A stretch of DNA of 61,424 nucleotides, from positions 1 to 61,424 of IMG/VR virus record IMGVR_UViG_3300028840_003815; one strand, written 5' to 3'. A model generated the notes under the pieces. That model was not told where the DNA came from. It did not search any database and saw only the letters and a list, made by a program, of their open reading frames with translations. The translations under genes were made by a program, and so were the position numbers. Source of the stretch: a virus. This document shows, in pieces, positions 5,019-61,424 of this stretch. The first letter of the stretch is position 1. Each line of letters opens with the position of its first letter.

Positions 5019-5321
5019 CTAATGAATCAGATTTATCACTACTTGTGCAGGACTATCTTCGGGTTTAATAATTTCAATTTTTGTACCGCAAAACGGACAA
5101 AATGTTATAGGCATTGTTTCATGTGTAACGACTTCCGGGTAAACAGAGCATGTATATATACATACATTATTTATTGTATTCATGTTTTTATCAAAATCGC
5201 CAAAACCGATAAATCTTGAATCCCAAGCCTCCTGAACTTTTTTACAGCAAGGTAAAAAGTTAGTTTCTGTAATTTCAAAAATATCATCTGAATATTGTAC
5301 TTTCATTGTAAATATTTTCAT
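5019..5321 (-). CDS. Small zinc-ribbon protein
   Basis: A 100-aa protein with a C-terminal zinc-ribbon half (FCPFCGTKIEIIKPED) near residues 74-90 and further cysteines upstream (LPCCKK, CIYTC). It is the last gene of the minus-strand early array and converges on the tail genes. Zinc-ribbon mini-proteins are common in phage early regions; the partner or target is unknown. Confidence 0.7.
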   Translation of the reverse strand: MKIFTMKVQYSDDIFEITETNFLPCCKKVQEAWDSRFIGFGDFDKNMNTINNVCIYTCSVYPEVVTHETMPITFCPFCGTKIEIIKPEDSPAQVVINLIH

Positions 5322-5324
5322 GAT

Positions 5325-5531
5325 TTACCGCTCTTCAAAAATAGTAATTTTTATATCAAAATAAAGTTTTCGTTTACAGGAAGGACAGATAAAATAATCA
5401 TCTTTATCATAACTTAAGATAGCATCAGACCAACCTTCAAACTCTTGTCCGCAAACACATTTTAACAAAGACAAAAAATCATTATTAGAATATCCAAAAT
5501 CAACTTTATCCGTTACATCCAAGTCTTTCAT
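5325..5531 (-). CDS. Small zinc-ribbon protein
   Basis: The 68-aa protein starts at an ATG preceded by AGAAAGGA. An upstream in-frame extension to 5645 exists but lacks a ribosome site and overlaps the neighbouring gene. It carries two CxxC-type knuckles, KCVCGQEF and FICPSCKRK, enough for one zinc. It is co-directional with two other tiny zinc-ribbon genes, so the three form a cluster. Function unknown. Confidence 0.7.
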   Translation of the reverse strand: MKDLDVTDKVDFGYSNNDFLSLLKCVCGQEFEGWSDAILSYDKDDYFICPSCKRKLYFDIKITIFEER

Positions 5532-5550
5532 GAATCTATTCCTTTCTGTC

Positions 5551-5712
5551 TTACCGTTTACTATTCCAAACTGTAATGGCTTTATTGCATATAATACACA
5601 AAACAACTGTGAATTTAGGAGAAAAAGCAACAAGGTCAACGGCATCCGTATCAGTGTGCTTATATCCGCAATGAGGACAAACGATATTCGTTATTGTTCC
5701 GGCTCTATCCAT
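5551..5712 (-). CDS. Very small zinc-knuckle protein (53 aa)
   Basis: A short gene with a strong AAAAGGAG site five to six bases before the ATG. The protein begins MDRAGTITNIVCPHCGYKHT and has a second knuckle CIICNKA, so four cysteines can hold one zinc. It lies between the ORF6N regulator and the other zinc-ribbon genes on the same strand. Codon pattern and ribosome site support it despite its size. Function unknown. Confidence 0.68.
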   Translation of the reverse strand: MDRAGTITNIVCPHCGYKHTDTDAVDLVAFSPKFTVVLCIICNKAITVWNSKR

Positions 5713-5769
5713 AGTTATACTCCTTTTAATTCATTCAACAGAAGATTTGCGGTCTCCTGTTGAATGAGA

Positions 5770-6696
5770 CTATCGCCTTCTATTTAAATCAAATTCTGTA
5801 CAGACCGGCTGCCCTGAAAATCCATATTGCCACTGTTCAGGGTATTCTTTGCTATCAATGTCAAAAGCCTTAGACAAGTGTTTTATCTTGCAAAATTTCT
5901 TCTTTGTACATATCTTGCAATAAATTGCATTCATGAGGGATTCTTCAGTTGGGGATACCGGTTTAAACGGTTGCCCTGCTTTATCCTCAAGTTTTTTTGC
6001 TACTGATTGAGGCAAGAAAACCTTATGCTTCCTGAGTATTGCAGAGACTTTTTTAACTGAGTTCCCATTACTATACCCGTAAACTCTTTTGGCGATTTGA
6101 CTTAATGATAAATCCTTGTTTCTCAATTGGATAATATCAAACTCTTTTTCAGAGTACTGTATTGGTAAATCCGGTTGGCGGTGTGGCTGTGTCGGTTGAA
6201 AATCTTGTGAAAGCTGTTGAATGATTTCCTGTGAAACCTGATATTCCAATGTCTTCAATTTTGCCTTTTTAAATTTTAAAAAGGATTCAAATAAAATTTC
6301 CATCTGACTCGGTTCATAATGCTGAATTTCGGCGCTTTGTTCAAGGGCGGAAAAAGCCCGCATAATTTGAATTGAGCGCTTGATAGCAATGTCTGTATGA
6401 AGAACGGCTGAAAGCATGTTGCAGCCTTCACGGGTGAAGGCGTGAGGAAGGTATTTAACATCTTGTAACCATTGAAAGGTCGCACCCTGCGACCTTAGAA
6501 TTCCAACTTCATCCTTTGTCATCTGGAATATAAAATCTTCCGGGAACCGTTCAGGGTTTCTTTTGACTGCTTCATTAACTCTTTTGGTTTCAGTCCCGTA
6601 AATAACTGCAATGTCTTTATCTAACATTGCGTCCGGCCTGCCTTCAAGCCTGATGATTTGCGATTGAATTTCTGTAACTGTTAATTCCGTATTCAT
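5770..6696 (-). CDS. ORF6N-domain phage regulator (anti-repressor type)
   Basis: A 308-aa protein. Residues of about 10-115 match the ORF6N domain: DKDIAVIYGTETKRVNEAVK, RFPEDFIFQMT, then LPHAFTREGCNMLSAVL. ORF6N is a DNA-binding domain of phage anti-repressors and related regulators. Residues of about 185-235 look like a helix-turn-helix (SEKEFDIIQLRNKDLSLSQI). The tail has a Cys cluster (YCKICTKKKFCKIKH) that may bind zinc. Downstream of the Rha-like gene on the same transcript, it may act in the phage decision circuit; that role is inferred. Confidence 0.85.
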   Translation of the reverse strand: MNTELTVTEIQSQIIRLEGRPDAMLDKDIAVIYGTETKRVNEAVKRNPERFPEDFIFQMTKDEVGILRSQGATFQWLQDVKYLPHAFTREGCNMLSAVLHTDIAIKRSIQIMRAFSALEQSAEIQHYEPSQMEILFESFLKFKKAKLKTLEYQVSQEIIQQLSQDFQPTQPHRQPDLPIQYSEKEFDIIQLRNKDLSLSQIAKRVYGYSNGNSVKKVSAILRKHKVFLPQSVAKKLEDKAGQPFKPVSPTEESLMNAIYCKICTKKKFCKIKHLSKAFDIDSKEYPEQWQYGFSGQPVCTEFDLNRRR

Positions 6697-6726
6697 ACTT
6701 GTCTCCTTTTTAGAATCCTGATGTCA

Positions 6727-6993
6727 TTATACATCTTTGTTTGACAGCCTTTCACATATATCCTTTTTCAAAGATATAACTTTTGATGAATTTTTCATTA
6801 ACATAACTACGAAGTAAGCTTGTACATTACTAAGCTGATAATATGTAATCGGGCGACCTCCTGAATAATTTTTTTTTTCAATCATTTTATCATTTCCGCA
6901 CTCCTGAATGATTGCTTCATGGCGTTTTATAAGCAGCACTACTGTTCTATGCTGAACGCCTGATATTTCTGACACATATAAACTTGTTAGCAT
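6727..6993 (-). CDS. Rha-like phage regulatory protein (short)
   Basis: An 88-aa protein whose N-terminus (YVSEISGVQHRTVVLLIKRH) resembles the DNA-binding start of Rha family phage regulators, followed by a GGRPITYYQLSNVQAYFVVM segment typical of the same family. Full-length Rha proteins are longer, so this is a minimal version. A good promoter lies just upstream (7030-7058), and it is followed by the ORF6N gene. Confidence 0.7.
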   Translation of the reverse strand: MLTSLYVSEISGVQHRTVVLLIKRHEAIIQECGNDKMIEKKNYSGGRPITYYQLSNVQAYFVVMLMKNSSKVISLKKDICERLSNKDV

Positions 6994-7029
6994 TTTTTAA
7001 ATTCCTTTATGTAGAAAAATATAATCATA

Positions 7030-7058
7030 TTTATACATTTATCTGTTATAAAAGTCAA
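7030..7058 (-). promoter_or_regulatory. Sigma70-like promoter for the Rha/ORF6N transcript
   Basis: On the minus strand TTGACT is followed after 17 bp by TATAAA. It lies about 40 bp upstream of the Rha-like ATG, in the divergent gap between minus-strand regulators and the plus-strand gene at 7140. Confidence 0.65.
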
Positions 7059-7139
7059 CCATTTTTAACTTTACAATCATCTTTTTTTATGATACCGGAA
7101 TAGGACACTTTATCAATTGTACTATGTTTTGGAGTTTAA

Positions 7140-7571
7140 ATGACTACACAAATTTTAAAAACAGATAATGAGATTCTCGTTACTCTGGATAATGATATGC
7201 TATGGATAGATGAGTTTGAATATAATCCAATACTTATAGATGAGTCTGACACAGCAGATTATGGGATATGGCACAACGAAGCACTCCGGCCTGATGAAGT
7301 CGGTAGAAAAATTACTCTGGAAAGTCAAGACGGATTAGGCTTTCAAAAAAGAAGTACAGTCATTGCATTAAAAATGCTTGATATTGTTCCAAATACAAAA
7401 TATAAATTAAAAATTATTGATGAGGGTTCGACTATTGAAAAAATTGTCAGGTTTGACCATTCCGGTGATGAGGGCGGGGTATCATTCCGGCCTGCGTCCA
7501 GTATTGCAGGGATAAGCCCGACAGAATTTTGGTATACAGGCCGGATAAGTATGATAGTTACAACTGTTTAA
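7140..7571 (+). CDS. Unknown acidic protein, isolated plus-strand gene
   Basis: A 143-aa protein, beta-rich and acidic, with no cysteine or membrane segment (for example YNPILIDESDTADYGIW and EGSTIEKIVRFDHSGDEGG). It is flanked by minus-strand early genes, and its stop overlaps the end of the convergent gene. Composition is closer to the tail proteins than to the early genes around it, so a late virion role or a moron is possible. Function is not recognised. Confidence 0.65.
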   Translation: MTTQILKTDNEILVTLDNDMLWIDEFEYNPILIDESDTADYGIWHNEALRPDEVGRKITLESQDGLGFQKRSTVIALKMLDIVPNTKYKLKIIDEGSTIEKIVRFDHSGDEGGVSFRPASSIAGISPTEFWYTGRISMIVTTV

Positions 7572-9441: not shown

Positions 9442-10056
9442 TTAAAGAACAAGTCCTATATCATCAAATATTACAGGGTATTTGTCTTTCAAATTATGCA
9501 ACAATTGAATCATAAGCTCTCTGATTTGCGGGTGTGCAGCTTTCGATGTTCTCAGACTTAAAATATGTCTCAATTCCCTGATGTTTGCAGTCATAACAAT
9601 CACGGTTTTAAGGCTGTTAGGTAACACACTTCTGGCTTGTTCCGGCTTGGCTCCTTTTGCAAGGAGTTGTACATACATCATTTCTGCATAATTCATTGCA
9701 GTTTCCCAATTCATCATTTCCAGTGATGAATTTTTCCAGAATACCGGCCTGATGACTGCAATGCCATTTTTATACATGCAGTATCTTGTGCTTTCCTGAC
9801 TGTACGAAGCAAGGCGATGTCTTACAAGTTCATGCGATACTCCCCTATCCGTAATGAACTTTATGGTAAAGTTCATATGTTCAATCACGCTGTGATGCCC
9901 TGATTTTATAATTTTCTTTACAAATCCGGCTGCTGAATCAGCGGTTATTTTCCCCTCGCTTTGATAGCATGTTCTGCCTGCCAGTTCGATATTCTTTAAA
10001 ATAGTCTCACCATCCGGTGAGAATAAAATCTCATGAGACTGGTCAATTATCTTCAT
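9442..10056 (-). CDS. thyX: Flavin-dependent thymidylate synthase
   Basis: A 204-aa protein containing the ThyX signature: ELVRHRLASYSQESTRY at about residues 75-92 (RHRxxSxxxxSxRY). It also has HHSVIEHMNFTIKF near 54-67 and a C-terminal LRTSKAAHPQIRELM segment. ThyX methylates dUMP to dTMP using methylene-tetrahydrofolate and FAD/NADPH. Usual length is 200-250 aa, so it is full length. With the dNMP-kinase-like gene and the dCTP deaminase at 39.6 kb, it supplies dTTP for phage DNA. Confidence 0.95.
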   Translation of the reverse strand: MKIIDQSHEILFSPDGETILKNIELAGRTCYQSEGKITADSAAGFVKKIIKSGHHSVIEHMNFTIKFITDRGVSHELVRHRLASYSQESTRYCMYKNGIAVIRPVFWKNSSLEMMNWETAMNYAEMMYVQLLAKGAKPEQARSVLPNSLKTVIVMTANIRELRHILSLRTSKAAHPQIRELMIQLLHNLKDKYPVIFDDIGLVL

Positions 10057-25608: not shown

Positions 25609-25839
25609 TCAAGCTCGTGGGCTGTGGATATTATCATAAAAAAACTTTTTAGAGCAATATAGGAAAAGGTTTGTACAGATTCCACAATTGAACACCCTTC
25701 CGCAATAATCACATTTACTCTTCTCTATTTTTTTTATAATTTCCTTAACAGATAATTCTTTCATTCTGCCTCCAATATTGTTTTTTTCAATATCCATATC
25801 TGACAATATTTTATTGAATAGGTCTTTTGCTTTACTCAT
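25609..25839 (-). CDS. Small zinc-knuckle protein
   Basis: A 76-aa protein with SKCDYCGRVFNCGICTNLFL, four closely spaced cysteines, then CSKKFFYD. Two starts are possible: 25839 (overlapping the previous stop) and 25764 (GGAGG four bases upstream). Function unknown. Confidence 0.58.
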   Translation of the reverse strand: MSKAKDLFNKILSDMDIEKNNIGGRMKELSVKEIIKKIEKSKCDYCGRVFNCGICTNLFLYCSKKFFYDNIHSPRA

Positions 25840-26306
25840 TTCTTATTAGCTTCATACCAAGCTTTGCTTCGTGCTTTTATCTTATCCTTATTAGCCTCAT
25901 AGTAAGTTTTTGCTTTATCCTTATTAGCCTCATAGTAAGTTTTTGCTTTATCCTTATTAGCCTCATAATAAGCTTTTGCTTTATCCTTATTAGCCTCATA
26001 ATAAGCTTTTGCTTTATCCTTATTAGCCTCATAATAAGCTTTCTTCCGTGCTTTTATCTTATCCTTATTAGCCTCATAGTAAGTTTTTGCTTTATCCTTA
26101 TTAGCTTCATAGTAAGTTTTTGCTTTATCCTTATTAGCCTCATAATAAGCTTTATTGTAAGCTTTTGCTTTATCCTTATTAGCCTCATAATAAGCTTTTG
26201 CTTTATCCTTATTAGCCTCATAATAAGCTTTCTTCCGTGCTTTTATCTTATCCTTATTAGCCTCATAATAAGCTTTGTTTTTTGCTTTGCGTTCTTCTGG
26301 TGTCAT
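25836..26306 (-). CDS. Repeat protein of YYEANKDK units
   Basis: A 156-aa protein made almost entirely of the unit YYEANKDKAKA (11 residues) with longer units of 14-15 residues (KARKKAYYEANKDKI). It is highly charged and probably one long helix. Similar linkers occur in phage zinc-finger/HNH proteins, where they join an N-terminal zinc knuckle to a nuclease; here both ends are missing. Compare 41194-41706, which keeps the zinc knuckles. The repeats are nearly identical at DNA level, so unit number is likely unstable. Confidence 0.6.
   Translation of the reverse strand: MTPEERKAKNKAYYEANKDKIKARKKAYYEANKDKAKAYYEANKDKAKAYNKAYYEANKDKAKTYYEANKDKAKTYYEANKDKIKARKKAYYEANKDKAKAYYEANKDKAKAYYEANKDKAKTYYEANKDKAKTYYEANKDKIKARSKAWYEANKK
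25846..26280 (-). repeat. Tandem 33-bp coding repeats
   Basis: About ten units built on TTATTAGCCTCATAATAAGC (plus strand) with 33-bp spacing and occasional longer units. They encode the YYEANKDK protein; there are no spacers of unrelated sequence. Confidence 0.85.
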
Positions 26307-27047: not shown

Positions 27048-28538
27048 TTAAAATGGTTGTTTTTCTGTTTCTGCTGTTTCTGCTGTATCAACTATAAATT
27101 CAGACTCAAATTTGTCTAAATTCTTATTAATAAAATTAATGGTACGTGGCAACAAGCAATACCAGTGCCCAATTTCATCAAAATTTACAGGTGTTGCGAA
27201 TTCTGGCATTTTCTGCTTTATAAATTCTGTTAATCCAGGAGTACGCTGCTCTCTCTTTCCCAGATCAACAAATAATTTATGATGTTCTGTCAGTTCGGTG
27301 AGAAAATCAGCCCACATTGGAACATGCTGAACCTGAATCAATTTTGTTGACTCCACCCGGAACGGAAAAAATTTGTCTTTGCCTTTTGGATGCCTGCTGA
27401 AATTCTGCATAGCGATTTTTACGCCGTCTCTATCATAACCGCGCTCTGAAACCTGAGCATGAATTTTTTTCAGCAGTTTGCGCTCCGGATCGTCTCCGAT
27501 TAAATCTGTTTTGGCTCCTGTATATTGTGCTGGTGATTGTTCCGGCTGTTGCTGTTTTTCTGTATCAGGCTGTTGACTTGCTGTAACAAAATTCAATTCC
27601 CCTGAAGGCATGGCATCAGTCTGTGTAACAATTTCATTATCAGTTTTTTCAGGATAAAATTCTTCTGAATTTTCAGGATAAAATTCTTCTGAAAAATCCT
27701 GAGAATCATCAACAGTAGAATCAAAAGCGATTGATTTTATTTGAGATAATGCAAGCTCTTTGACTTGTCCGAATTGCTGTGAACGAAATTCAATGGATTG
27801 CGCCTGTTTAAATGCCAAAGTCTGTAATTCATCAACTGAGCCTTTAAAAACTATCGAAACAACCGGAATTGTGGTTTGCCCTCCATTCGGTATTGTAATG
27901 GCCTGGGGTACAAGCATCAGGTATAATGGAAGAAATGCAAGATTTCCACCTGTAAAATTTTGCAAGAAATATAGACTGCCCATAATGGAGCTGATTGTCC
28001 TGAAAGATGTTGTACGAAATCTGAAACAGCCTCCAATGTATTCTGCCTGATCTATCAAAAAAGTCAGGCAGCCATTCGGTTTGCATTTTCTTGCCCCGCT
28101 TGAATTTGGATTGAGCAAATGACATGTGCATTTTACTTTCTCACGTTTTCCGGATTGCTGGTTCAGACTCAAACCCATATGCCCGTCTCCTTCACATTGA
28201 CATTGAGAGCCATTGTAATAAGCATACCGGGTATAAAAGATTAAGTCCATATCCTGCTCAGACTGGCAATTATGCAAGAGCCTGATAGGGATTCCAATTA
28301 TATTCCCGTCTTTATTCAATAAAGCCGGTCTTTTTTGATCTGCTTTGAGTTTTTCAATCAAATCAGTATCAAGGATAAAATTGTCATCTGAACCACGCTC
28401 GGTTTTTGTGATTAAAAAATGGTCTGTTTTTTGCGGAAGCCGGAATTCTTTTCCGGCTTTGCTTTTCCGCTTTTCGCCTTTGAAACCGACTTTTACAGAG
28501 CCTGTATGCAACAGTTGTGGTGTAAAATTCTTAATCAT
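27048..28538 (-). CDS. Gp3-like phage recombination-associated protein
   Basis: A 496-aa protein starting MIKNFTPQLLHTGSVKVGFK, typical of the phage Gp3-like (recombination directionality-like, often called hydrolase or metal-binding) family. A Cys cluster (SQCQCEGDGHM, KCTCHLLNP, RKCKPNGCLTFL) at about 130-175 fits zinc binding. GGCFRFRTTSFRTISSIMGS and GGNLAFLPLYLMLVPQAITI are further family segments. Residues 310-400 are a low-complexity linker with a small repeat (EEFYPE). It overlaps the exonuclease gene upstream, a frequent pairing in phages. The exact activity is not established. Confidence 0.78.
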   Translation of the reverse strand: MIKNFTPQLLHTGSVKVGFKGEKRKSKAGKEFRLPQKTDHFLITKTERGSDDNFILDTDLIEKLKADQKRPALLNKDGNIIGIPIRLLHNCQSEQDMDLIFYTRYAYYNGSQCQCEGDGHMGLSLNQQSGKREKVKCTCHLLNPNSSGARKCKPNGCLTFLIDQAEYIGGCFRFRTTSFRTISSIMGSLYFLQNFTGGNLAFLPLYLMLVPQAITIPNGGQTTIPVVSIVFKGSVDELQTLAFKQAQSIEFRSQQFGQVKELALSQIKSIAFDSTVDDSQDFSEEFYPENSEEFYPEKTDNEIVTQTDAMPSGELNFVTASQQPDTEKQQQPEQSPAQYTGAKTDLIGDDPERKLLKKIHAQVSERGYDRDGVKIAMQNFSRHPKGKDKFFPFRVESTKLIQVQHVPMWADFLTELTEHHKLFVDLGKREQRTPGLTEFIKQKMPEFATPVNFDEIGHWYCLLPRTINFINKNLDKFESEFIVDTAETAETEKQPF

Positions 28539-29418
28539 AATAGATAATTCCTTTCTGTGTTTTTGTATTGCCTTCAATCCATGTTGCCCATGATGGGAGT
28601 GTAATATATTCCGTTTTTTCTGAATATCCGGGCCATTCATCAGCAGTCAGGCATTTTCCGTATAAATCCAAATATTGCTGGTATTGTTGCCGTGCGGATT
28701 CTATATCAGCGGAATGGAGTCTGTAAACAGCAACTCCAATTTCAGGATTCTGTTCTGGTAATTTTTTTTCTACTGCGATAAACCTGAAATCGTTGAATTT
28801 TATCCCAGGGTTCGCTTCTGTCAATACATCCAGATAAAATGCGGCGCTCCAATGATATTTAAAATTCCCTATTGATTTTGAAAAGCCTTCCATAGATGCG
28901 TCAGAAGTGCTTTTTAAATCGATGCAGGTAAAGCCTGTATCAGTCGGTTTCAAGTAGTCAGGGCGGCATTTCTTCCAGAATCCGCGCCAGTCTTTTGAAA
29001 AAACGGAATGTTCTGCGTATCCATTTGACACCAATCGTGCGGCTTCAGGATGATTCATGACGGCCTGCTGCATTCTGCTAATCGTATCAAAATCTCTCTG
29101 ACGTACAGGCAATTTCCCGGATTCAAGAGGGAGCTTTGTTTTTTTCCCGTCTTCTATCACTTCATATTGTTCGCCAAATTTTTTCGGTTCCAGTACTAAT
29201 GTATGAAATAAAGTGCCTATTTGAAGAACTGATAAGCGGTTAAAATTCCACTCCGGTTCAGGTTCGGTAAATGTTTGAAATGCTTTTGCAGGGCTGCTGT
29301 CTGCCAGTTTTTTGAGTGTAGAAGATGACAGAATATATCTGTCTTCTGGGTCCCTAACATCTCTATGATAAACATGATTTGACATATCAGGAATAATACC
29401 GGGTTTGTCTATTTTCAT
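28531..29418 (-). CDS. RecE/DUF3799-type PD-(D/E)XK exonuclease
   Basis: A 295-aa protein. KPGIIPDMSNHVYHRD ... LSSSTLKKLADSSPAKAF is the usual start of this family; LQIGTLFHTLVLEP follows. The active site is seen as KCRPDYLKP (Asp) then FTCIDLKSTSDAS (D-x-K) near residues 150-175, and a conserved YHWSAAFYLDVL follows. Such enzymes chew 5' ends for phage recombination. The annealing partner may be the Gp3-like protein. Confidence 0.85.
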   Translation of the reverse strand: MKIDKPGIIPDMSNHVYHRDVRDPEDRYILSSSTLKKLADSSPAKAFQTFTEPEPEWNFNRLSVLQIGTLFHTLVLEPKKFGEQYEVIEDGKKTKLPLESGKLPVRQRDFDTISRMQQAVMNHPEAARLVSNGYAEHSVFSKDWRGFWKKCRPDYLKPTDTGFTCIDLKSTSDASMEGFSKSIGNFKYHWSAAFYLDVLTEANPGIKFNDFRFIAVEKKLPEQNPEIGVAVYRLHSADIESARQQYQQYLDLYGKCLTADEWPGYSEKTEYITLPSWATWIEGNTKTQKGIIYYD

Positions 29419-30190: not shown

Positions 30191-30219
30191 TTGACTTGTT
30201 AATTATATATATTTATAAA
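30191..30219 (+). promoter_or_regulatory. Rightward promoter of the replication operon
   Basis: TTGACT, 17 bp, TATAAA, followed at 22 bp by the ATG of the HTH gene with GAGAGG ribosome site. Divergent from 30110-30138, so this 175-bp gap is the main early switch. Confidence 0.75.
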
Positions 30220-30240
30220 AGGACAAGAAAGAGAGGTTTT

Positions 30241-30441
30241 ATGCAGAAAAGAATTTTAAGATTGTCTGAAATAAGGAAATTAGTCGATAAAAAAATTATC
30301 AACATGAAGTTTTTATCAAGAGAAACAGGTATTTCATATAATAATATCTGGACAGCGTTGAAGCGAAATAAAAATCCGTCCTATACTGTAATTGAAAAAA
30401 TTTCAGATTGCATTGATAAAAATTTCAGGGAGAGAATATGA
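30241..30441 (+). CDS. Small HTH regulator
   Basis: A 66-aa protein. NMKFLSRETGISYNNIWTAL then KRNKNPSYTVIEKISDCID is a Cro/CI-type helix-turn-helix. It is the first gene of the rightward replication transcript and sits beside two divergent promoters, so it probably controls one or both. Four-base overlap with the primase gene. Confidence 0.75.
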   Translation: MQKRILRLSEIRKLVDKKIINMKFLSRETGISYNNIWTALKRNKNPSYTVIEKISDCIDKNFRERI

Positions 30442-33041
30442 ATCCATCTTTTAAAAATAAAGTATTAGATTGTTTAAAAAACAGTCAATTTTGGACTCAA
30501 AAGACAAAAGACAATGGCAGTAAAATTTCGGGATTAACTTGTCCTGAGTGCGGAAAAAATGAAGCGTGGGCGTATAGCAAAAGCCCTATGGCTATATTTT
30601 GCAGCAGGGGAAATAAATGCTACGCAAAAACACTGACTTTATCCCTGTTCCCGGAAATCAGACAGAACGTAGAGAGGGATTATCCAGCTACAAAAACAGA
30701 ACCCCATAAACCAGCACTTCATTATTTACAATCCAGAGGGCTTAATAAGAGTCTGGAAGGGCTTGACTTCCAATATTGGAAAAAAACCCGCAAGGGCTGC
30801 GGTGGCGCTGTCATGTTCCCTGTTTCTAAAGATGTTTGGAATGGCCGTTTATTTAACCCAAACGGAAGCGGGAAAAGCCATACAAAAGGGGCGTATGGCG
30901 GAATATTCTGGAAGCATCCGGGAATACAGTATGATTCCGATAAAAAAACGTATGTTACTGAGGGGATTCTTGACGCACTTTCCTTTATAGAGATGGGATT
31001 TCAGGCAATTGCGATTATTTCAGCAGGGCAGACACCTGAAAATATAAAGCTGATTGAGTTTCATAACGTATGGTTAGCTTTTGATAACGATAACGCAGGT
31101 ATAAACGCCCTGAAAAAATGGAAAGATAAATTTCCGGGATACAAGGCTATTCTGCCGGACAAGGGGCAGGATTGGAATGATTTTCTTGCATTGAATGATG
31201 ACAAAGCATCTGAAATTTTTAAGAAAAAGAGTGGGAAATTTCAATTCAATGCAGAGCTGGCATTATCCAAGACTGCCCTTGAATACACAGAAAAGTTTTA
31301 TGGATTTCATAAATTTCTGCCTGGATTATTTCAATTCAATGGCTGTTACTGGATGGCAGGTATTAAGCAAAAGAAAGATGATGTAGAGATTAACGTTTAT
31401 AAATGTTCTGATTTCATCATGAAACCGCTTTATAAGCGATTGTTTATGGAATCTAAACAAACTGCTGAATATAGTTATTACCTACGGGTAACTCCAAAAA
31501 ATGAGAAATCCGTTGATATAACTATATCCGGTAAGGATTTGGCAGTTTTAAATAATACAAGACAAGTTTTTGGATTCAGGGCCGGGGTTTCATGGGTGGG
31601 AGATAATGAAGCCTTGACAAAATTACAGGAAAAAATCAGGCGCGCAAAGATTCAGGAAATCAAAATTGTTGATAATGTAGGATATAATGACGGTTGTTAT
31701 ATCCATTCCCATTTTATGATTGATGAGCGTGGAAATTTTCATTTACCGGATAAAATCGGAATAATCAAAAGTTTTGAACCGTTTGAAGCTGAGGACGCAT
31801 TAAAGCCACTTTCTGAACCTGTTTTAAATGCTCAAAAAGTGCAAAATATGATTTACAAAGCATGGGGAAATCAAGGTCTTGTGGCTATGGCTTGGACAGT
31901 TGCTTCGTGGTTCCGGTCTCAGATTCTTGAATCAGCCGGTTTTTTTCCGTTTTTATCGTTATATGGCGACCCCCAAACCGGCAAAAGTAACTTGATAAAG
32001 CTTTTACAGCATTGTCAGGGGTTCAGAAATGAAGGACATGGACTAAAAAAGGCTGATACAATCAAATTTATTGCTCGGTCTATCGCTCAAAGAAGCAATC
32101 TGTTTTATGCAATTCTGGAAGAACAGGGAAAACATGATAGTAAATTTGATTATCCAGGTATTATCCTGACTGGATATAATGGGAGCAGTATTCAGGGCCG
32201 TGCAGCTTTTTCAAATAATAACAAAACTCAATCCAGCCCGCTTGAGTGCGGAATAGTTTTTGTACAAAATTTTGAGCCATTCACAACCCAACAGGAAAAA
32301 GAAAGAGTTTTTTCTGTTCCATTCCGGATATCCCAGCTTTCAGAACAATCCTTTACAGCATTCAGGGAGCTTTTAAAGTATCAACCTGCTGCATTTTTAC
32401 AGGTTTTTATAGATGTCATGTTAAATAAGCAGGTTATTGAATCTGACTGGTTTGAAAGATTTAATATTCTAAGAGATGAGTTTATTCAGACTCTCCATGA
32501 CAACCGACTTGCTGAAGTATCGGCTATACTTATGACTTTTCATAATATTCTTTGTGCTATTACCGGCAATAATTTTGATATTAAGGATTACATATTACAG
32601 CTTACAAGAGAAAAGCAGGTGAATAAATCAAATGATTTGCCAGAAGCGGATATGATCCTTGATTATATTTATACAAATGCAGAAAAAGATTTAAGTCAAT
32701 TTGTAAAAATTGACTTACAAAACAGTCTTTTATGCTTCCACTGGGTTTCAGTGAAACAGCATGTTGAATCTTTCAGAGGGTTAAAACAGAGTGAAATTGT
32801 TAAGCAATTCAAGCGGCATGAGGCTTTCAACGCATGTAATAAAACTGTTAGATATGGCGATAATACATATAAATCATATGTATTTGATATTGAAAAAATG
32901 TCATGTGCTGTGAATTCTGGCTCTAACAATTGCTTTAATTGTGAATGGATTTACAGGGAAAATGGGATATTTACATGCCTAAAACACAATGGATCATCCA
33001 TTGAATCAGTGGTAGATTGTCAGCATTTTGAGCAATCATAA
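30438..33041 (+). CDS. Primase-helicase (zinc finger, Toprim, P-loop)
   Basis: An 867-aa protein. Residues of about 35-63 hold a zinc finger (CPECGKN ... FCSRGNKCYAK). A Toprim-like part follows with TYVTEGILDALSFIEMG (catalytic Glu about 175) and VWLAFDNDNAG (DxD near 205-209). The C-terminal half has a P-loop (LSLYGDPQTGKSNLIK, about 507-522) and further ATPase-like segments. This is the layout of phage DNA primase-helicase fusions that load at the origin. The candidate origin lies directly downstream. The very C-terminus has a Cys cluster (CFNCEWIYREN, FTCLKH). Confidence 0.85.
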   Translation: MNPSFKNKVLDCLKNSQFWTQKTKDNGSKISGLTCPECGKNEAWAYSKSPMAIFCSRGNKCYAKTLTLSLFPEIRQNVERDYPATKTEPHKPALHYLQSRGLNKSLEGLDFQYWKKTRKGCGGAVMFPVSKDVWNGRLFNPNGSGKSHTKGAYGGIFWKHPGIQYDSDKKTYVTEGILDALSFIEMGFQAIAIISAGQTPENIKLIEFHNVWLAFDNDNAGINALKKWKDKFPGYKAILPDKGQDWNDFLALNDDKASEIFKKKSGKFQFNAELALSKTALEYTEKFYGFHKFLPGLFQFNGCYWMAGIKQKKDDVEINVYKCSDFIMKPLYKRLFMESKQTAEYSYYLRVTPKNEKSVDITISGKDLAVLNNTRQVFGFRAGVSWVGDNEALTKLQEKIRRAKIQEIKIVDNVGYNDGCYIHSHFMIDERGNFHLPDKIGIIKSFEPFEAEDALKPLSEPVLNAQKVQNMIYKAWGNQGLVAMAWTVASWFRSQILESAGFFPFLSLYGDPQTGKSNLIKLLQHCQGFRNEGHGLKKADTIKFIARSIAQRSNLFYAILEEQGKHDSKFDYPGIILTGYNGSSIQGRAAFSNNNKTQSSPLECGIVFVQNFEPFTTQQEKERVFSVPFRISQLSEQSFTAFRELLKYQPAAFLQVFIDVMLNKQVIESDWFERFNILRDEFIQTLHDNRLAEVSAILMTFHNILCAITGNNFDIKDYILQLTREKQVNKSNDLPEADMILDYIYTNAEKDLSQFVKIDLQNSLLCFHWVSVKQHVESFRGLKQSEIVKQFKRHEAFNACNKTVRYGDNTYKSYVFDIEKMSCAVNSGSNNCFNCEWIYRENGIFTCLKHNGSSIESVVDCQHFEQS

Positions 33042-33063
33042 TCTAAGTCGTTGTAAATATTCA

Positions 33064-33312
33064 CTTGTTACCTTTTTGTTACCTTTTTTTGAATAGGTAA
33101 CAAAAAGGTAACACTCTAAGCTGTTAAAAATATTACATTGTTACCTTGTTACCTATGTTACCTGATATATGTATGTATATATGTGCGAGCCTATATGTTT
33201 TTATTTATATATGTAGTGAAAAATCAGGTAACATAGGTAACAAGGTAACAATGTAATATTTTTAACAGCTTAGAGTGTTACCTTTTGTTACCTTTTTTGA
33301 AAAAGGTAACAT
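33064..33312. other. Candidate replication origin: long inverted repeat with GTTACC words
   Basis: Positions 33103-33166 and 33223-33286 are a perfect 64-bp inverted repeat around a 56-base A+T-rich centre. Within 33067-33310 the word GTTACC or its inverse GGTAAC occurs 13 times. A nested perfect inverted repeat (33067-33083 with 33096-33112) extends the left side. It lies between the primase-helicase and RecD-like helicase genes, with no coding frame of its own. Iteron-like words, dyad and an A+T-rich centre are common marks of phage origins; the role is inferred. Confidence 0.72.
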
Positions 33313-33349
33313 TTTTAAAAGGCAATTTTTAGAGAAAGGAATCTATTTT

Positions 33350-35428
33350 ATGAATGAAATAGAGGGAGTTATACAGCAAATCAGGGGGCCATACGGAAAA
33401 GGTAACAACTGGTTTATCATGACATTGAAAGATGGACAAATGGTAACAGGCTGCAAACCCAGTCATATTGCAATTGGTGATAATTGCAAATTTACAGGAA
33501 ATTATAAAGAGAGCAAATACGGTCAGCAGTTTGCAGCTTCACAATTCAGCGTGTCTATGCCTAAAGATATGGCCGGGATTCTGGAATATTTAAAAAGACA
33601 CATGCCTGGAATCGGAAATAAAACTGGTAGAGCGATTGTTCAGCATTTCAGAGAAAATATATTTTCCATTCTGGATAATGAACCTGAACGACTTGCAGAA
33701 ATCAGGGGAATATCACAGAAAAAGGCCGAAAAAATAGCGGAAGTATACAAAGAGATAAAAGCCAGGCAAGATATGGATATATTTTATGCTGAAAATGGTA
33801 TTACTGCAAATTTGAGAGCAAGATTTGTTGATGCTTTAGGTGATGATGACAGTTTTATTATCAGACAAATTAAAAAGAATCCATACGGGCTTATTGAAAG
33901 AGTAGACGGATTCGGATTTATGACTGCTGACAGAATATTTCTGTCAATCAATAATACTGATATGGAAAATTCTTACCGGATTAATGCAGGTATTTCGCAC
34001 ACATTGAGAGACGCTGAAAATCAAGGACATTGTTATTTACTGGAAGCTGAACTTTTTAAGAAGGCAAGCAAATTATTATCAGTCTCAATAGAATCTGTCA
34101 TTGAAGCGTTTAAAGCTGATAGATTTGAAATTGAAGGTAATAGAGTTTACAATGATGATTTGTATTTTGCTGAAAAATCTGTATCTGAGAAGCTTAAACA
34201 GATGCTTTCTTGTCATAATTATATGGAAATTAATGATATATCACAGAAAGATTTTTTAGATTTATCGCCAGACCAGCAACAGGCTTTCCGATTTGCCACT
34301 AAAAATAAAGTCTGCATTATTACGGGCGGGCCTGGAACTGGCAAAACTCATATGCTTAAAATGTTATTGCAAGCCTTTTCTGAATTAGAAGTGGCGTTAG
34401 CAAGTCCGACCGGGAAAGCAGCAAAGAGGATGCAGGAGAGTACAGGGAAGCAGGCTTTTACTATTCATAGGCTTTTAAAATACAGACCATTTGAAGGATT
34501 TCAGCATAATGAAAAGAATCAACTTGAATATGATGTTGTTATTATAGATGAAAGCAGTATGATTGATATCCGGCTTTTTTCAGCTTTATTAAAAGCTATA
34601 CCGATAGATAGCCGGGTTGTCATTGTAGGAGATGCCGATCAGTTGCCAAGTGTGGGGCCGGGGCGGTGTCTTGCTGATATGATTAAGGCCAGGGTTCCTA
34701 CTGCAATGTTGACAACATTACATAGACAGGAATCAGGATCATTGATTGATTTAAATGCTCAAAAGATTAATAACGGGCAAGGTATTCGAGGAGGCAATAT
34801 AAAATCAGATTTTATATTCTGTATTGAAGAAGACCCGGAAACACTGGCAGACAGAATTGTAAAAGCCTGTAAATATTACATTGATGACAATCCGCAGGTA
34901 CTTTGCCCACAAAAAAAGGGGGTTATCGGAGTTTTTAATCTTAATGAACGGCTGCGTAATGAGGTTTTTAACCCGGATGGTGAACCGGTTCCAGGAACTT
35001 TTTTCAGGCTTGGTGATAGGGTTATTCAGCTTCGGAATAATTATAATCTGGAAATCTTTAATGGTGATATTGGAATAATCACAGGTATACATGAAGATAA
35101 GGACAAGCAGGTATTTATCAAAATCGAGTTTGACACTGGGCCGGTTTTATATCCGAAACATATGATTGACGACTTACAACTTGCATACGCATTGACAATC
35201 CACAAGAGCCAAGGCAGTGAATTTCATACTATAATTATGCCGGTACACACTCAAAATTATATTATGTTAAAGCGTCAATTGCTTTATACCGGTATCACAC
35301 GAGGCAAAAAGCGTGTTGTGTTAATTGGGACTGAGAAAGCCGTAAATCTGGCTATTAAAATGCCCGATACTTCGGTTAGATATTCAGCTTTGGCTGAAAG
35401 AATTAAAAAAGAAAGGAAAATAGATTAA
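33350..35428 (+). CDS. RecD2-like helicase
   Basis: A 692-aa protein starting at the ATG behind AGAGAAAGGAA; an earlier reading from 33275 would run through the inverted repeat. N-terminal OB-like part (EGVIQQIRGPYGKGNNWFIM), helix-hairpin-helix (MPGIGNKTGRAIVQHF), Walker A CIITGGPGTGKTHMLKM (about 323-338), Walker B VVIIDESSMIDI, GDADQLPSVGPGRCLADM, and the C-terminal LAYALTIHKSQGSEFHTIIM and YTGITRGKKRVVLIG. This is superfamily 1 RecD2/TraA-type 5'-3' helicase. It probably works in replication or recombination with SSB. Confidence 0.92.
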   Translation: MNEIEGVIQQIRGPYGKGNNWFIMTLKDGQMVTGCKPSHIAIGDNCKFTGNYKESKYGQQFAASQFSVSMPKDMAGILEYLKRHMPGIGNKTGRAIVQHFRENIFSILDNEPERLAEIRGISQKKAEKIAEVYKEIKARQDMDIFYAENGITANLRARFVDALGDDDSFIIRQIKKNPYGLIERVDGFGFMTADRIFLSINNTDMENSYRINAGISHTLRDAENQGHCYLLEAELFKKASKLLSVSIESVIEAFKADRFEIEGNRVYNDDLYFAEKSVSEKLKQMLSCHNYMEINDISQKDFLDLSPDQQQAFRFATKNKVCIITGGPGTGKTHMLKMLLQAFSELEVALASPTGKAAKRMQESTGKQAFTIHRLLKYRPFEGFQHNEKNQLEYDVVIIDESSMIDIRLFSALLKAIPIDSRVVIVGDADQLPSVGPGRCLADMIKARVPTAMLTTLHRQESGSLIDLNAQKINNGQGIRGGNIKSDFIFCIEEDPETLADRIVKACKYYIDDNPQVLCPQKKGVIGVFNLNERLRNEVFNPDGEPVPGTFFRLGDRVIQLRNNYNLEIFNGDIGIITGIHEDKDKQVFIKIEFDTGPVLYPKHMIDDLQLAYALTIHKSQGSEFHTIIMPVHTQNYIMLKRQLLYTGITRGKKRVVLIGTEKAVNLAIKMPDTSVRYSALAERIKKERKID

Positions 35429-35916
35429 TGGCAGGAATGTTAAAAGGCATTATTATTGGCAATCTTGGAGGCAATCCAGAACTTAAATACGGACAAGACG
35501 GGCTTGCACGGTGTCATTTCTCTGTTGCTTGCAATGAAAAAGTTAAGGGTGAAGACAGAACGGAATGGATACGGGTTACGGTATTCGGTAAACTGGCAGA
35601 AATATGCAGCCAATATCTTTTTAAAGGTAAACAGGTTTATCTTGAAGGCAGGCTTCAGACAAATACATGGGAAGATCAACAGGGGCAGTCCAGGTTTTCA
35701 CTGGAAATGGTTGCAAATAATATGGTAATGCTTGGGACAAAAGCGGATAATGGACAGGGCGGCGGTTATCAAGGCCGGCAGGGAGGCTACCAGCAGAATT
35801 CGTATAACCAGCCGCAGCAGGGAGGAAGCGGTTATCAGCCTACCCCACCCATACCGCAGGGACACCAGCAGTTACCGGAACAGCCTCCGGTTGATAATGA
35901 TGATATTCCATTTTAG
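35428..35916 (+). CDS. ssb: Single-stranded DNA-binding protein
   Basis: A 162-aa protein with a bacterial SSB OB fold (KGIIIGNLGGNPELKYGQDG, RCHFSVACNEK, TEWIRVTVFGKLAEICSQYL, KGKQVYLEGRLQTNTW), a Gly/Gln/Pro-rich linker, and the acidic tip DNDDIPF that binds partner proteins. Start overlaps the helicase stop (TAATG). Protects and organises ssDNA at the fork. Confidence 0.95.
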   Translation: MAGMLKGIIIGNLGGNPELKYGQDGLARCHFSVACNEKVKGEDRTEWIRVTVFGKLAEICSQYLFKGKQVYLEGRLQTNTWEDQQGQSRFSLEMVANNMVMLGTKADNGQGGGYQGRQGGYQQNSYNQPQQGGSGYQPTPPIPQGHQQLPEQPPVDNDDIPF

Positions 35917-38562: not shown

Positions 38563-38870
38563 ATGGTTTTTCAAAAAGTTGGAATAAAAATAGTTATTAT
38601 CCTAATGGTAAAGAAAAATTTGGTGTTTCATTAAAATATAAATTTTTAGAATATTTGGGTAAGGGGTGGTATCGTCCAGATTTTGCTCCGGTAGACTATT
38701 CAATAACAACACAACATTCTGACATTAAAGATATTATTAACAAGTGGAGAAAAAGATTAGATCGTAAAGTGGCTTTTGCAATATATAAAAATTGGGGATT
38801 TTTTAAAAAATATCAAATTGAAAGCATAACTGTCTTAAAAAACAAAATTGAAACGGGAGAATTACTATGA
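38563..38870 (+). pseudogene. Frameshifted or 5'-damaged gene upstream of the DUF262 gene
   Basis: The coding frame reads SKSWNKNSYYPNGKEKFGVS, then KFLEYLGKGWYRPDF and IINKWRKRLDRKVAFAIYKN up to a stop overlapping the next ATG (ATGA). It has no in-frame start except a TTG at 38655. A good ATG at 38563 is one base out of frame; adding one A to the A5 run at 38573-38577 would join them. It is either a recent frameshift, a sequencing error in the homopolymer, or programmed. Confidence 0.5.
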
Positions 38871-39331
38871 CTATAAAGAATTTGGAATCAAGTATTCCTG
38901 CAAATAATGAAAAAATTATTGAGATATACAAAAAAGTAAAGGCTGGACAACTTGATCATAGTCCTGACTTTCAAAGAAAACTTGTTTGGAAAAAGCAACA
39001 TAAAATTAATTTTATAAAAACTATACTGCTTAATTATCCTTTCCCGGAGATATATAAAGCACCAGGAGATTTGAATGTTGATGATTTAGAATTGACAGAT
39101 TTGATTGTTGATGGCCAGCAAAGAGTAAATGCGATTGTAAATTTTATTGATTCTAAAGATGTTTTCGCCTTACCTAAAACATCTTTAAAATTTACAAATC
39201 TTACCAAAAAAGAAAAAGAAGATTTTCTGAATTATGAAGTTTCTGTACGTTATTTGAAAAATGCTGATAAAGCACAAATAAAAGAAATTTTTCAGCGAAT
39301 AAACAATACAGATATGACATTGTCAAGTTAA
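38867..39331 (+). CDS. DUF262-like protein, truncated
   Basis: A 154-aa protein. IIEIYKKVKAGQLDHSPDFQ then RKLVWKKQHKINFIKTILLN and LIVDGQQRVNAIVNFIDSK are the DUF262 hallmarks (ParB/Srx-like fold, FQRxxVW and DGQQR). It ends at RINNTDMTLSS, where the family usually continues (TLSxxE). DUF262 is found in GmrS/BrxU-type restriction enzymes and in phage proteins. The C-terminal part is missing, so it may be inactive. Confidence 0.75.
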   Translation: MTIKNLESSIPANNEKIIEIYKKVKAGQLDHSPDFQRKLVWKKQHKINFIKTILLNYPFPEIYKAPGDLNVDDLELTDLIVDGQQRVNAIVNFIDSKDVFALPKTSLKFTNLTKKEKEDFLNYEVSVRYLKNADKAQIKEIFQRINNTDMTLSS

Positions 39332-39404: not shown

Positions 39405-39594
39405 ATGTGTAAACATATAGAATCAAAAACTTGCTGGTGTAATCCCACTGTTGAAGACTATTCAAAAAAAAAAGAAAGTTAATTTCTGCTGGCATTGTGG
39501 TCGAAAACTTCAAGGAAATCATCGTGTTGAAAAGTTTATAGATGGTGAAATAAGAACACTCCATAAACAATGTGCTAAAAATTGTTCCACGTAG
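39405..39594 (+). pseudogene. Small zinc-knuckle gene split at an A10 run
   Basis: ATG with AAAAGGAATAAAG before it gives MCKHIESKTCWCNPTVEDYS then stops soon after an A10 run (39464-39473). The next frame continues KKVNFCWHCGRKLQGNHRVE ... HKQCAKNCST and stops inside palindrome site 4. One A fewer would make a single 62-aa zinc-knuckle protein. It is a frameshift mutation, a homopolymer error, or programmed slippage. Confidence 0.5.
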
Positions 39595-39598
39595 AACA
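39583..39598. repeat. parS-like palindrome, site 4
   Basis: TGTTCCACGTAGAACA, same as site 2, overlapping the stop of the split gene and just upstream of the dCTP deaminase ribosome site. Confidence 0.65.
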
Positions 39599-39616
39599 TT
39601 TTTAAAAGGAGTAAAA

Positions 39617-40132
39617 ATGATACTATGTGATTTAGAAATTAAAGAAATGGCTCAAGCCGGTATGATTGAGCCATTCTCTATAAAAAATCTTAATCCCGCA
39701 AGCTACGATCTTACACTTGGGGATAAATTCAGAGTACCGGAATCCGGGGGCTGGTCTGATGAAGTCCATATGCCAGAAGCAGGTATTGATCTTGATGTTT
39801 TCCCCTTTATCCTCGCTCATTCTCTTGAATACCTGAACATGCCTGATAATATAGCAGCTATGCTATATAGTAAAAGCACTGCCGGCCGCAAAGGGATTGA
39901 GCATTCTCACGCCGGATTTATTGATCCAGGATTTCCAGGGCAACTGACTTTTGAAGTTAGTTGCCTATGGCCTTTTAAGCGGATTATAAAACCCGGTAAT
40001 AAATTATTCCAGATTGTATTTTTCAGAATGTCCGGGAAGCCGGAAAAGAATTATATGGAAAAATCTGATTCTCATTATGTAAATCAGTCCGGAGCCACTG
40101 CTAATTATGATAATGGAAGGAGCAGTTTATGA
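39617..40132 (+). CDS. dcd: dCTP deaminase / dUTPase-family protein
   Basis: A 171-aa protein. NLNPASYDLTLGDKFRVPES near 24-43, AAMLYSKSTAGRKGIEHSHA then GFIDPGFPGQLTFEV near 90-120 are the dCTP deaminase/dUTPase signatures. It deaminates dCTP to dUTP and/or hydrolyses dUTP, feeding ThyX with dUMP. The start is set by AAAAGGAGTAAAA. Bifunctionality cannot be told from sequence. Confidence 0.88.
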   Translation: MILCDLEIKEMAQAGMIEPFSIKNLNPASYDLTLGDKFRVPESGGWSDEVHMPEAGIDLDVFPFILAHSLEYLNMPDNIAAMLYSKSTAGRKGIEHSHAGFIDPGFPGQLTFEVSCLWPFKRIIKPGNKLFQIVFFRMSGKPEKNYMEKSDSHYVNQSGATANYDNGRSSL

Positions 40133-44312: not shown

Positions 44313-44636
44313 ATGAATCATAACGATATAGAAAATTTGTTTCAAGAACACCCAGATGTTAAATTTTTTGATTTTGTGGGTGAATGCCATGATTGCGGTA
44401 AAGATACAACTGTAACAATTGAGAGGCTGATAGATGGGTTTAAAATTTCAGGCGGGGCTTTGTATACAAAAAACATTAAATGCCAAAAATGCTATGAATT
44501 AGAGCCTGCTTTAAAGCAAAAATGTGAAATATACAGCAGAGTAGTTGGGTATATGCGACCCGTGCAAAGCTGGAATAATGGCAAACAACAGGAGTTTGAA
44601 AAGCGAAAAAAATTCGATGGGGATGTAAATGCTTAG
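44313..44636 (+). CDS. Anaerobic ribonucleotide reductase-like zinc peptide
   Basis: A 107-aa protein. A CHDCGKD knuckle near residues 25-31 and KCQKCYE near 54-60 precede CEIYSRVVGYMRPVQSWNNG then KQQEFEKR, the C-terminal signature of NrdD-type anaerobic reductases (SR-x-xGY-x-RPV-x-x-WN-x-GK). Only this C-terminal zinc/radical-domain ending is present. Similar mini-proteins are seen in anaerobes. It may fit an anaerobic host. Confidence 0.72.
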   Translation: MNHNDIENLFQEHPDVKFFDFVGECHDCGKDTTVTIERLIDGFKISGGALYTKNIKCQKCYELEPALKQKCEIYSRVVGYMRPVQSWNNGKQQEFEKRKKFDGDVNA

Positions 44637-45396
44637 AAGACTTGGAAACAAAAAGAAAATATTACCGCATTTGCTTCCTTTATTCCCGGAATGCAAAACT
44701 TTTATTGATATGTTCATGGGAACAGGGTCCGTATCCTTTGCAATGATAAAGCGCTGTAATTATGTATTTGCAAATGATATTGAGAATGAAATATTTAATC
44801 TGTATCAGGTACTTAAAAATGATAAAGATGAATTGATTAAACAGCTTCAGATTATGCCTGTTCATAATGGATTGTTTCAGCATTGGAGGCATAATAAAGA
44901 ATCTGAAGCGGTTATGAAGGCAGTCAGGTTTTTGTTTTTAAGTAATTTTGGGTATATGGGTGTATCAGAAGCGCTTCGTTTTGGCATGGTGAAATCTAAA
45001 AAAATCTTACTCAATAATATTGAAGAAGTTTTTAGGAAAATCCAGAATGTTCAGTTTTTGAATTATGATTTCAGAGAAGTTTTAAAGAAAATAGAAATAA
45101 AGAATATTCAAAACGCTTTCCTATACTGCGACCCGCCGTATTTAAACACTACATCAAATTATAATTCAGAATGGAAATTGCAGGATACTGAAGACTTATT
45201 CCAGATATGTATGGATTCCGGCTTGCGTTTTGCCATTTCTGAATTTGAGAATCCTATCATTGTTGATATGGCTAAATCTTCCGGCTTAAAAGTGAATCAT
45301 GTTATTGAGCGTAAATCTTTAAGGAATCGTAATAATGAAATTTTAATAACTAATTATTCAACAGCAAAACAAAGATTATTATTTTATGGAACTTAA
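44629..45396 (+). CDS. DNA adenine methyltransferase (Dam/D12 class)
   Basis: A 255-aa protein of D12 type. LRRLGNKKKILPHLLPLFPE at the N-terminus, TFIDMFMGTGSVSFAMIKRC (AdoMet-binding FxGxG), NDIENEIFNLYQVLKND, and the catalytic AFLYCDPPYLNTTS (DPPY, about 168-171) are all present. It transfers a methyl group to N6 of adenine. Possibly anti-restriction or packaging control; the target site cannot be told. Confidence 0.9.
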   Translation: MLRRLGNKKKILPHLLPLFPECKTFIDMFMGTGSVSFAMIKRCNYVFANDIENEIFNLYQVLKNDKDELIKQLQIMPVHNGLFQHWRHNKESEAVMKAVRFLFLSNFGYMGVSEALRFGMVKSKKILLNNIEEVFRKIQNVQFLNYDFREVLKKIEIKNIQNAFLYCDPPYLNTTSNYNSEWKLQDTEDLFQICMDSGLRFAISEFENPIIVDMAKSSGLKVNHVIERKSLRNRNNEILITNYSTAKQRLLFYGT

Positions 45397-60400: not shown

Positions 60401-61424
60401 AGAACAGGAGCTTGAAACTGTAAGGATTTCAGCTTATAAAAATGTTTCTCAAAATTTAAAAGAGGTTGGAACTGAAGCTAAAAAAACACTTGATACTGTT
60501 GATGGGAAAGAATCTACATTAAAAGTTAATACACAACAAGCCAAAGAAGGGATTCATGAAAGCAAATCCCTTTTTGAGCAATTCACAGTCGCAGCCGGGT
60601 CGCCTGTTCAGGTTCCTACAATAGATATTAATGCGGATTCAGGGGCAGGGCCGGTTCCGTTCCATGAGGGTATTCAGCAAATCACAGAAGATTTTGAAGC
60701 AATGAAAACTAAAGTTGCTGATGCTGAAATACGGGGAGTTGTAGGCTTTGACGTAGACAGCCAGACGCTTGATGACGGGTTGGGATATGTTCAATCTGCT
60801 TTTGATACACTTATGACTGACTTGTCCGGGCGTTCTACTCAGTACGGGGCTGACTTTGCTTCTATAATGCAAGATGGGGGTGCGGCTGCCATGACTATGG
60901 CTCAAGATGTTATTAGTCATGGAGAAGAAATGATTTCAGCACTTACGCAGTCTATTTCTGATTTCGGGAATCAGATAGCAGCCATTGAAGCGGAGATATT
61001 GGGGGTTGGAGCTAATACAGAAGAACAGATTCGGACGTTACAGCAGGGCTTGATGTCCGATTATGAAGTTTGGATGGCAGACAGAGCCAGAGTTGATGAG
61101 CTTTATGCCGAAGGAAAAGCGGCACTTGAGCAGGGGAATTATGAAAAGTCAAAAGAATTAATGCTGGCTGCTCAAGACTTGGCAAAAGGACTGGCTCAGG
61201 AAGTTACAGACGCTAATGGAGAAGTCGTTGTCTCATTGGAAGAAGCCACAACACAGGCGATTGCACTTGTTGAGCAGGCCGGGGCAGGAGCGACTACTGC
61301 ATTAGAAGGGCAGAGAGATGCTTTGTCAGGACAGCAGGATGCAGCCAGAAAAGAGTTGCAAAACACTGAAGCAGTTGTGTCTTCAATGCAGAATGCCATA
61401 GATCAATTTTCCTCAATGTTTAAA
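57444..61424 (+). CDS. Tail tape measure protein, N-terminal and central part (continues at position 1)
   Basis: This ORF begins at an ATG just after the tail chaperone stop and is still open at the end of the window. Because 61281-61424 equals 1-144, it continues in frame to a stop at 957, giving about 1597 aa. Residues of roughly 55-280 match the TP901-type tape-measure core: DDQMRSVGAIAGATGD, then SETRYSATQAAEGMQFLSMA. A hydrophobic stretch lies at about 390-510 (for example VWGFFLVPAAIGVALGTLIA). Long charged helical segments rich in Glu, Lys and Ala follow at about 560-1020 and are probably coiled coil. Family knowledge: the protein sets tail length and passes through the tail tube during DNA delivery. 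Its position after the frameshifted chaperones and before tail-tip genes is the usual siphovirus order. Confidence 0.95.
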   Translation, partial: MSSKIEIIIALKNATKAGLDSVKKGLTGIQGAANNVSDSLFNLKSGLATIGVGAGLNQVISTFASFDDQMRSVGAIAGATGDQLALMTAKAEALGSETRYSATQAAEGMQFLSMAGFDVGQSMEAIDGVLELAAANMMDLGQASDIATNVLSGMSLPIEDLGRVNDVLTKTAFSATTSVIELGEAMKIAGPAADGSNMSLEKVVSVLGGLGNKGIRGAEAGNAVKRMLMALQSPTARAKKQLSDLGIELTDQEGKFRGLIPILKDMGKSQIDLAQSTEIFGKFTATSALAAAKSSISIENLEQTLKSAAGTAKKAATEMEAGLGGSIRALKSAWEGLQIAFGKGLESGAISFVQFLTAEFRNLTETIKALNTDGSLNKWRDLFVTALKETYNQIVSFSKILLELLDIFSPVIKQLIEITPYVVAFGAAAFTTSKSIELMNGAISLTTAAMDMLRKVFYADILGTSIARIQRLTMEFGILRTAAMGMQAVMSTVWGFFLVPAAIGVALGTLIANFDKVADAAVISFNAVRNVLSGTSKKNQAELENLIAITDKVINKYAEFKNVKLPADIASESIQSLKTLNDELNRSKTYWSSYITQLEATNDGSREMAILIEDAKEKLNAVKSALISVQQEMQAYGESYQSAIDQASKVHENHLKLINDLTEKQITEEMAARRKALSDAEKAYRDSGKTETAELEKLQAEKQKIISESENKIIGFRKAAAENIQSTAADEIAIAESIRDEKLRILQDQLEREVVNQGQFSQQKNEIIKQYEAEKVKISETTEKAAAKAIESIQKESVKNYLKSVESRNKQEKLIYESKIKEIEKLESKGAISYKKANELKEKETIDFYKKIADRARVNFADAAKVYDTDSTKYIDSLENKLKAEQNLSDKIVEVNRNKQQQIKALEDAELGLRKAQMDAELAKTEQWLEAGVISAETAAYRKIDAEKEFYTFKLDMAKKAVSELAEAGKQETADYKNAVAEKIAAEQELETVRISAYKNVSQNLKEVGTEAKKTLDTVDGKESTLKVNTQQAKEGIHESKSLFEQFTVAAGSPVQVPTIDINADSGAGPVPFHEGIQQITEDFEAMKTKVADAEIRGVVGFDVDSQTLDDGLGYVQSAFDTLMTDLSGRSTQYGADFASIMQDGGAAAMTMAQDVISHGEEMISALTQSISDFGNQIAAIEAEILGVGANTEEQIRTLQQGLMSDYEVWMADRARVDELYAEGKAALEQGNYEKSKELMLAAQDLAKGLAQEVTDANGEVVVSLEEATTQAIALVEQAGAGATTALEGQRDALSGQQDAARKELQNTEAVVSSMQNAIDQFSSMFK
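61281..61424. repeat. End copy of the 144-bp overlap (circular closure)
   Basis: Identical to 1-144 and in frame within the tape-measure gene. Most likely an assembly overlap from a circular or circularly permuted genome. Confidence 0.95.

Follow-up and report, generated by a model that had tools for sequence, protein, structure and literature searches.

Between the primase-helicase gene and recD2 of a viral genome lies a 308-bp gap filled with copies of a single six-base word; the question raised by this locus is whether the gap holds the replication origin of the phage, as an initial annotation had suggested, and which protein would recognize it. The window (the whole 61,424-bp stretch analysed, IMG/VR record IMGVR_UViG_3300028840_003815) has ends that share a 144-bp direct repeat (1-144 and 61281-61424), and the record is therefore considered complete, circular or circularly permuted, at about 61.3 kb. 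Terminase, portal and major head genes are present; the prevailing gene direction is leftward from ~30.1 kb down to ~5 kb and rightward beyond 30.2 kb. Elsewhere the genome encodes ThyX (9442-10056), a GmrSD N-domain (38867-39331), a dCTP deaminase-like protein (39572-40132) and a D12 adenine methylase (44629-45396), as well as a highly repetitive Lys/Ala-rich protein with YEANKDKAKAY repeats (25836-26306, minus strand) and a recombination directionality factor-like (Gp3-like) protein (27048-28640, minus strand); no integrase was seen among the scanned proteins. The features surrounding the gap are as follows.

30196-30441, plus strand: short Cro/C1-type HTH gene preceding the primase, with a probable regulatory role
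30438-33041, plus strand: primase-helicase of 867 aa, proposed initiator, with a Zn finger, Toprim primase, SaPI-Rep/Cch-like AAA+ helicase and C-terminal winged helix
32640-32924, plus strand: winged-helix domain at the C-terminus (residues 735-829), proposed to read the iterons on the basis of models and co-variation
33042-33349: gap between the primase-helicase stop (33041) and recD2, which holds the array
33350-35428, plus strand: RecD2-like helicase gene (recD2), ATG at 33350
35428-35916, plus strand: single-strand DNA-binding protein gene (ssb)

The sequence description given by the initial annotation is confirmed throughout: the position between the two helicase genes, the exact 64-bp arms, the 13 words in 244 bp, the A+T-rich centre and the nested repeat on the left are all as claimed. 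The elements of the array are listed below.

33067-33310, no strand: iteron array, proposed replication origin, 13 copies of GTTACC/GGTAAC, in the same place in relatives
33103-33166, plus strand: left arm of the inverted repeat, exact reverse complement of the right arm
33223-33286, minus strand: right arm, separated from the left by 56 bp
33066-33113, no strand: nested exact 19-bp inverted repeat (33066-33084/33095-33113) with four words
33140-33162, plus strand: left word triplet (33140, 33148, 33157) at 8-9 bp pitch
33227-33249, minus strand: right word triplet, inverted (33227, 33236, 33244), at an adjacent-word distance of 71 bp from the left triplet
33167-33222, no strand: A+T-rich centre (77% A+T), candidate melting region by analogy with the A+T block of relatives
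33286-33311, plus strand: short inverted repeat TGTTACCTTTTTTGAAAAAGGTAACA followed by T5, two words, weakly terminator-like
33401-33447, minus strand: two more words within the start of recD2 (33401, 33442)

With mismatches allowed, arms of 98 nt are obtained at 85% identity (33085-33182/33207-33304); the runner-up among exact inverted repeats in the window (arms within 1 kb) is the nested 19-bp repeat, all others being 18 bp or shorter. The cluster is unique in the genome. Besides these 13 words and the two in recD2, 11 more GTTACC/GGTAAC words occur in the 61 kb, close to the 12.4 that chance would give for the whole window; other 6-mers stay below 13 per 250 bp, the nearest reaching 12 in a coding repeat at 26 kb, and the best 6-mer cluster of simulated genomes holds 5-8 per 250 bp. 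Written as arrows with the word TGTTACC, the array reads >11>19<11<32[>8>9>]71[<9<8<]32>10>19<, which is close to mirror-symmetric about its own centre; with the word GGTAACA the layout is the same and all arrows are reversed. The orientation of the word relative to that in relatives is ambiguous, as GGTAACA matches the words GGTGACA/GGTTACA at 6/7 positions while TGTTACC suits the geometry of facing triplets. As a single strand the region folds at z = -19.9, strong folding being inevitable for any long inverted repeat.

The protein encoded directly upstream of the array matches the PHROG 1139 DNA primase family (E 2.8e-73, residues 6-706), and its structure was modelled with a pLDDT of 82 and a pTM of 0.60. 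Residues 82-300 of the model match DnaG/T7 primases; for residues 295-824 the best solved match is SaPIbov1 Rep (8tch, Z 23.6), followed closely by SCCmec Cch (5dgk, Z 23.3 over 460 residues), the next fold being MCM at ~13. Folded alone, the C-terminal domain is predicted to form a winged helix with a pLDDT of ~90 over residues 740-820; its best matches are TcpK, both free and bound to oriT DNA (Z 9.2-9.4), and it also matches residues 453-556 of SaPIbov1 Rep (8tch, Z 8.1). By these models the window protein shares the SaPIbov1 Rep/Cch helicase fold together with its C-terminal winged helix. At the sequence level, phmmer with the single primase sequence found no match among solved structures, and the family profile retrieved only Toprim primases and weak P-loops. 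DUF927 and D5 signatures were absent from the window protein, and DUF927 matched 2/40 family members (best E 0.006). The last 45 residues are Cys-rich and modelled with low confidence; this extra tail (codons 823-867) is absent from the aligned close relatives.

Relatives of the locus are distant. Scanning viral contigs with the primase and with RecD2 as single proteins found no relative, nor did a search for the exact 28-base array pattern, and these searches gave no close relative that keeps both flanking genes; blastn against phage records matched only ssb. The phage records do contain distant primases (20-27% identical), and an alignment of these recovered two loci in viral contigs, L012 (37%) and L013 (35%); an alignment of the primases from the window, L012 and L013 then recovered five loci in bacterial genomes, of which three are labelled Desulfobulbaceae, one Desulfoprunum and one a Paludibacter MAG. 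The primase is present in 16/258 genomes of the order of Desulfoprunum compared to 3/395 in a phylum sample; the primase relatives are mostly Desulfobulbales prophages, and the closest is about 43% identical to the window protein at most.

Where a locus extends past the primase gene into the following gap, a short-word array nearly always fills it; such arrays begin right after the primase gene in L012, L013, L092-L095, L112-L115, L118, L119, L121, L122, L125 and L129. In relatives the downstream gene is a different one, while the array stays with the primase. The typical layout is two to three words at 8-9 bp pitch with an inverted set facing them 71-84 bp away (71 in the window); in L013, L092, L093 and L094 the arrows read about >9>22>32[>9>9>]75-84[<9<9<]62-97>21>21>. 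The relatives' word is 9 bp long, often TGG-NNN-CAG, and varies between elements with its copies changing together; examples are TGGTGACAG, TGGCAACAG, TTGTAACAG, TGGGTGCAG, TGGGTACAG, TGGCCACAG and TGGCTACAC. L093 and L094 have 76% identical primases and very similar surrounding DNA, yet most copies of the word have changed between them (TGGCAACAG versus TTGTAACAG). A 50-bp block of 86-98% A+T lies beside or within the array in 15/16 array-bearing relatives, where it sits beside one triplet; the window is without such a block, its most A+T-rich 50 bp reaching 80%. The exact palindromes of relatives measure only 8-29 bp versus 64 bp in the window. Comparison with relatives, which the initial annotation had called for, thus bears out the array layout and leaves the long palindrome without a counterpart; among the sequences compared, the perfect 64-bp palindrome appears peculiar to this phage and the conserved part is the iteron layout. 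Cruciform extrusion, which had been raised as a use of the symmetry, finds no support, since the perfect palindrome is not kept.

Arrays are not universal. In L116 and L117 (Desulfobulbales) the primase is present and an array was not detected; L123 has a weaker word cluster located elsewhere. Most members of the wider PHROG 1139 family have no detectable 7-mer array near the gene, exceptions being Pseudomonas phage phi3, L052 and the E. coli elements. In several Desulfobulbales prophages (L095 at 4733-7287, L112, L121, L115) the primase gene is broken by stops or frameshifts and the array persists.

The word appears to follow the C-terminus of the primase. Across 15 diverse members, with word strings picked by eye from the arrays, word mismatches are correlated with C-terminal identity once mid-protein identity is removed (partial Mantel, partial r -0.56, permutation p 0.0003-0.0006); the result is unchanged without the window and outliers (p 0.0007-0.002), and no other region of the primase is significantly related to word mismatch (p 0.12 or more). 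A second case is provided by 13 E. coli-type elements with near-identical primases, in which the array lies ~1.27 kb downstream of the primase, past an integrase gene, and the words fall into three classes, CGGTTACAA, GGGTCACAA and AGGTTACAA. The last 130 residues of these primases are 68-74% identical between classes and 88-100% within them, compared to 90-99% identity outside the C-terminus. Shared inheritance can mimic this pattern because the primase C-terminus and the array are linked; the class signal fades between integrase and array (positions 3450-3900) and persists in the integrase, which tends to follow the word class yet varies within class C. Loci L097-L107, L042, L080 and L081 are P2-derived elements of E. 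coli whose primases belong to this family and whose arrays, in three word classes, follow the primase C-terminus.

Arrays of operators exist in phages, and the words could be where the small HTH protein, or a different regulator, binds to control recD2-ssb and the genes beyond; the array does lie upstream of recD2, and a Cro/C1-type gene is present at 30196-30441. This is considered improbable, as the word is absent near the divergent promoter at 30.1 kb, the array remains with the primase when the downstream gene changes, word divergence is tracked by the primase C-terminus, and the 1-kb region holds one promoter-like match, fewer than its shuffles. The HTH product had been named as a word binder alongside the primase-helicase; no support was found for the former, and the latter is the favoured binder. 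Less probable still is that the stretch between the primase and recD2 genes acts as a transcription terminator or RNA hairpin: the hairpin potential is huge and 33286-33311 followed by T5 is a terminator-like match, but that stem has only three G-C pairs, and relatives keep the word spacing and not the long hairpin. Moreover, in L095, L121 and L122 the layout is mirrored relative to the gene, which indicates that the array acts as DNA rather than as an RNA of fixed sense; all Rfam matches score below gathering scores, those over the array being to microRNA-precursor hairpins.

Inverted word clusters are also found in centromeres and resolution sites, and the resemblance of the C-terminal domain to TcpK, a relaxosome protein, could point to a partition, recombination or packaging site instead of an origin. 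Such a function is just as unlikely as a terminator, as no par or relaxase gene was found among the scanned proteins and the array is constantly partnered by a primase-helicase whose helicase domain is initiator-like. Against the origin reading, cumulative GC skew, suggested earlier as a check, does not point to the array, turning at 30081 (the divergent promoter) and not at 33.2 kb, a turn that gene orientation alone could explain and that is not separable from gene layout; DnaA-box-like 9-mers number five in the genome with none within 20 kb of the array.

The array is very probably a replication origin of the SaPI/PICI type in a complete phage, one that would be recognized by the C-terminus of the primase-helicase. 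The origin proposed by the initial annotation is supported by a symmetric array that recurs in relatives with word copies changing in concert, by the co-variation of word and C-terminus, and by the SaPI Rep/Cch-type model. From these we infer a course of events that leads from binding through ring loading and melting to bidirectional forks: the winged helix at the C-terminus of the protein encoded upstream would bind the GGTAACA/TGTTACC copies, and the two opposed sets would load one helicase ring on each side of the A+T-rich centre, which the rings would melt. Two forks would then start, primed by the Toprim domain of the same protein; phage SSB and RecD2 would take part downstream, presumably with a host polymerase. 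Bidirectional loading fits the symmetry of the array, and the palindrome may be a symmetrised version of an array whose relatives have a one-sided outer A+T block.

In SaPIs the C-terminal domain of Rep reads iterons directly downstream of its own gene (PMC7581432), and origins of Gram-negative PICIs, situated right after rep, have an A+T-rich region with a set of iterons on either side, an arrangement that works in plasmids and has been called common to PICIs and "no other known bacterial replicon" (PMC6092414). The window resembles this rep-ori module (SaPIbov1, EcCICFT073) in having an initiator helicase gene followed by two word triplets around a 77% A+T centre, and in its modelled helicase fold; word reading by the C-terminus is known for SaPI Rep and is proposed here. 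The primases of SaPIbov1 and SaPI5 are AEP (PMC7581432), whereas that of the window is a DnaG-like Toprim fused with the helicase in one protein, and the array is far more palindromic. As a circular phage of about 61.3 kb with terminase, portal and major head genes, the window is not a PICI or a small helper-dependent satellite. SCCmec Cch superposes over the whole helicase region and C-terminal domain, but was solved as a helicase without a primase part, and the DUF927 model misses the window protein. The origin of P4 (ori/crr) uses separated sites. The alpha protein of this phage-related element fuses primase and helicase (PMC7145576) as the window protein does. Phage primases of PHROG 1139 (Peduoviridae-like phages) belong to the same primase-helicase family, although, unlike the window, most lack a detectable array beside the gene.

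A probable origin with PICI-like layout in a complete phage and many prophages, served by a Toprim and not an AEP primase, widens that origin class; the natural word variants paired with cognate domains offer a ready-made set for studying the recognition of origin words by a winged helix. More tentatively, the origin of this phage and prophage family may be modular: its spacing would stay nearly constant, while the core of the word (often TGG-NNN-CAG) could be exchanged along with corresponding changes in the winged helix at the C-terminus of the Toprim primase-helicase. In the window, the palindrome could allow symmetric loading of two rings across a single melting region. If true, this modular pairing of word and winged helix would provide every element with a replication identity of its own.
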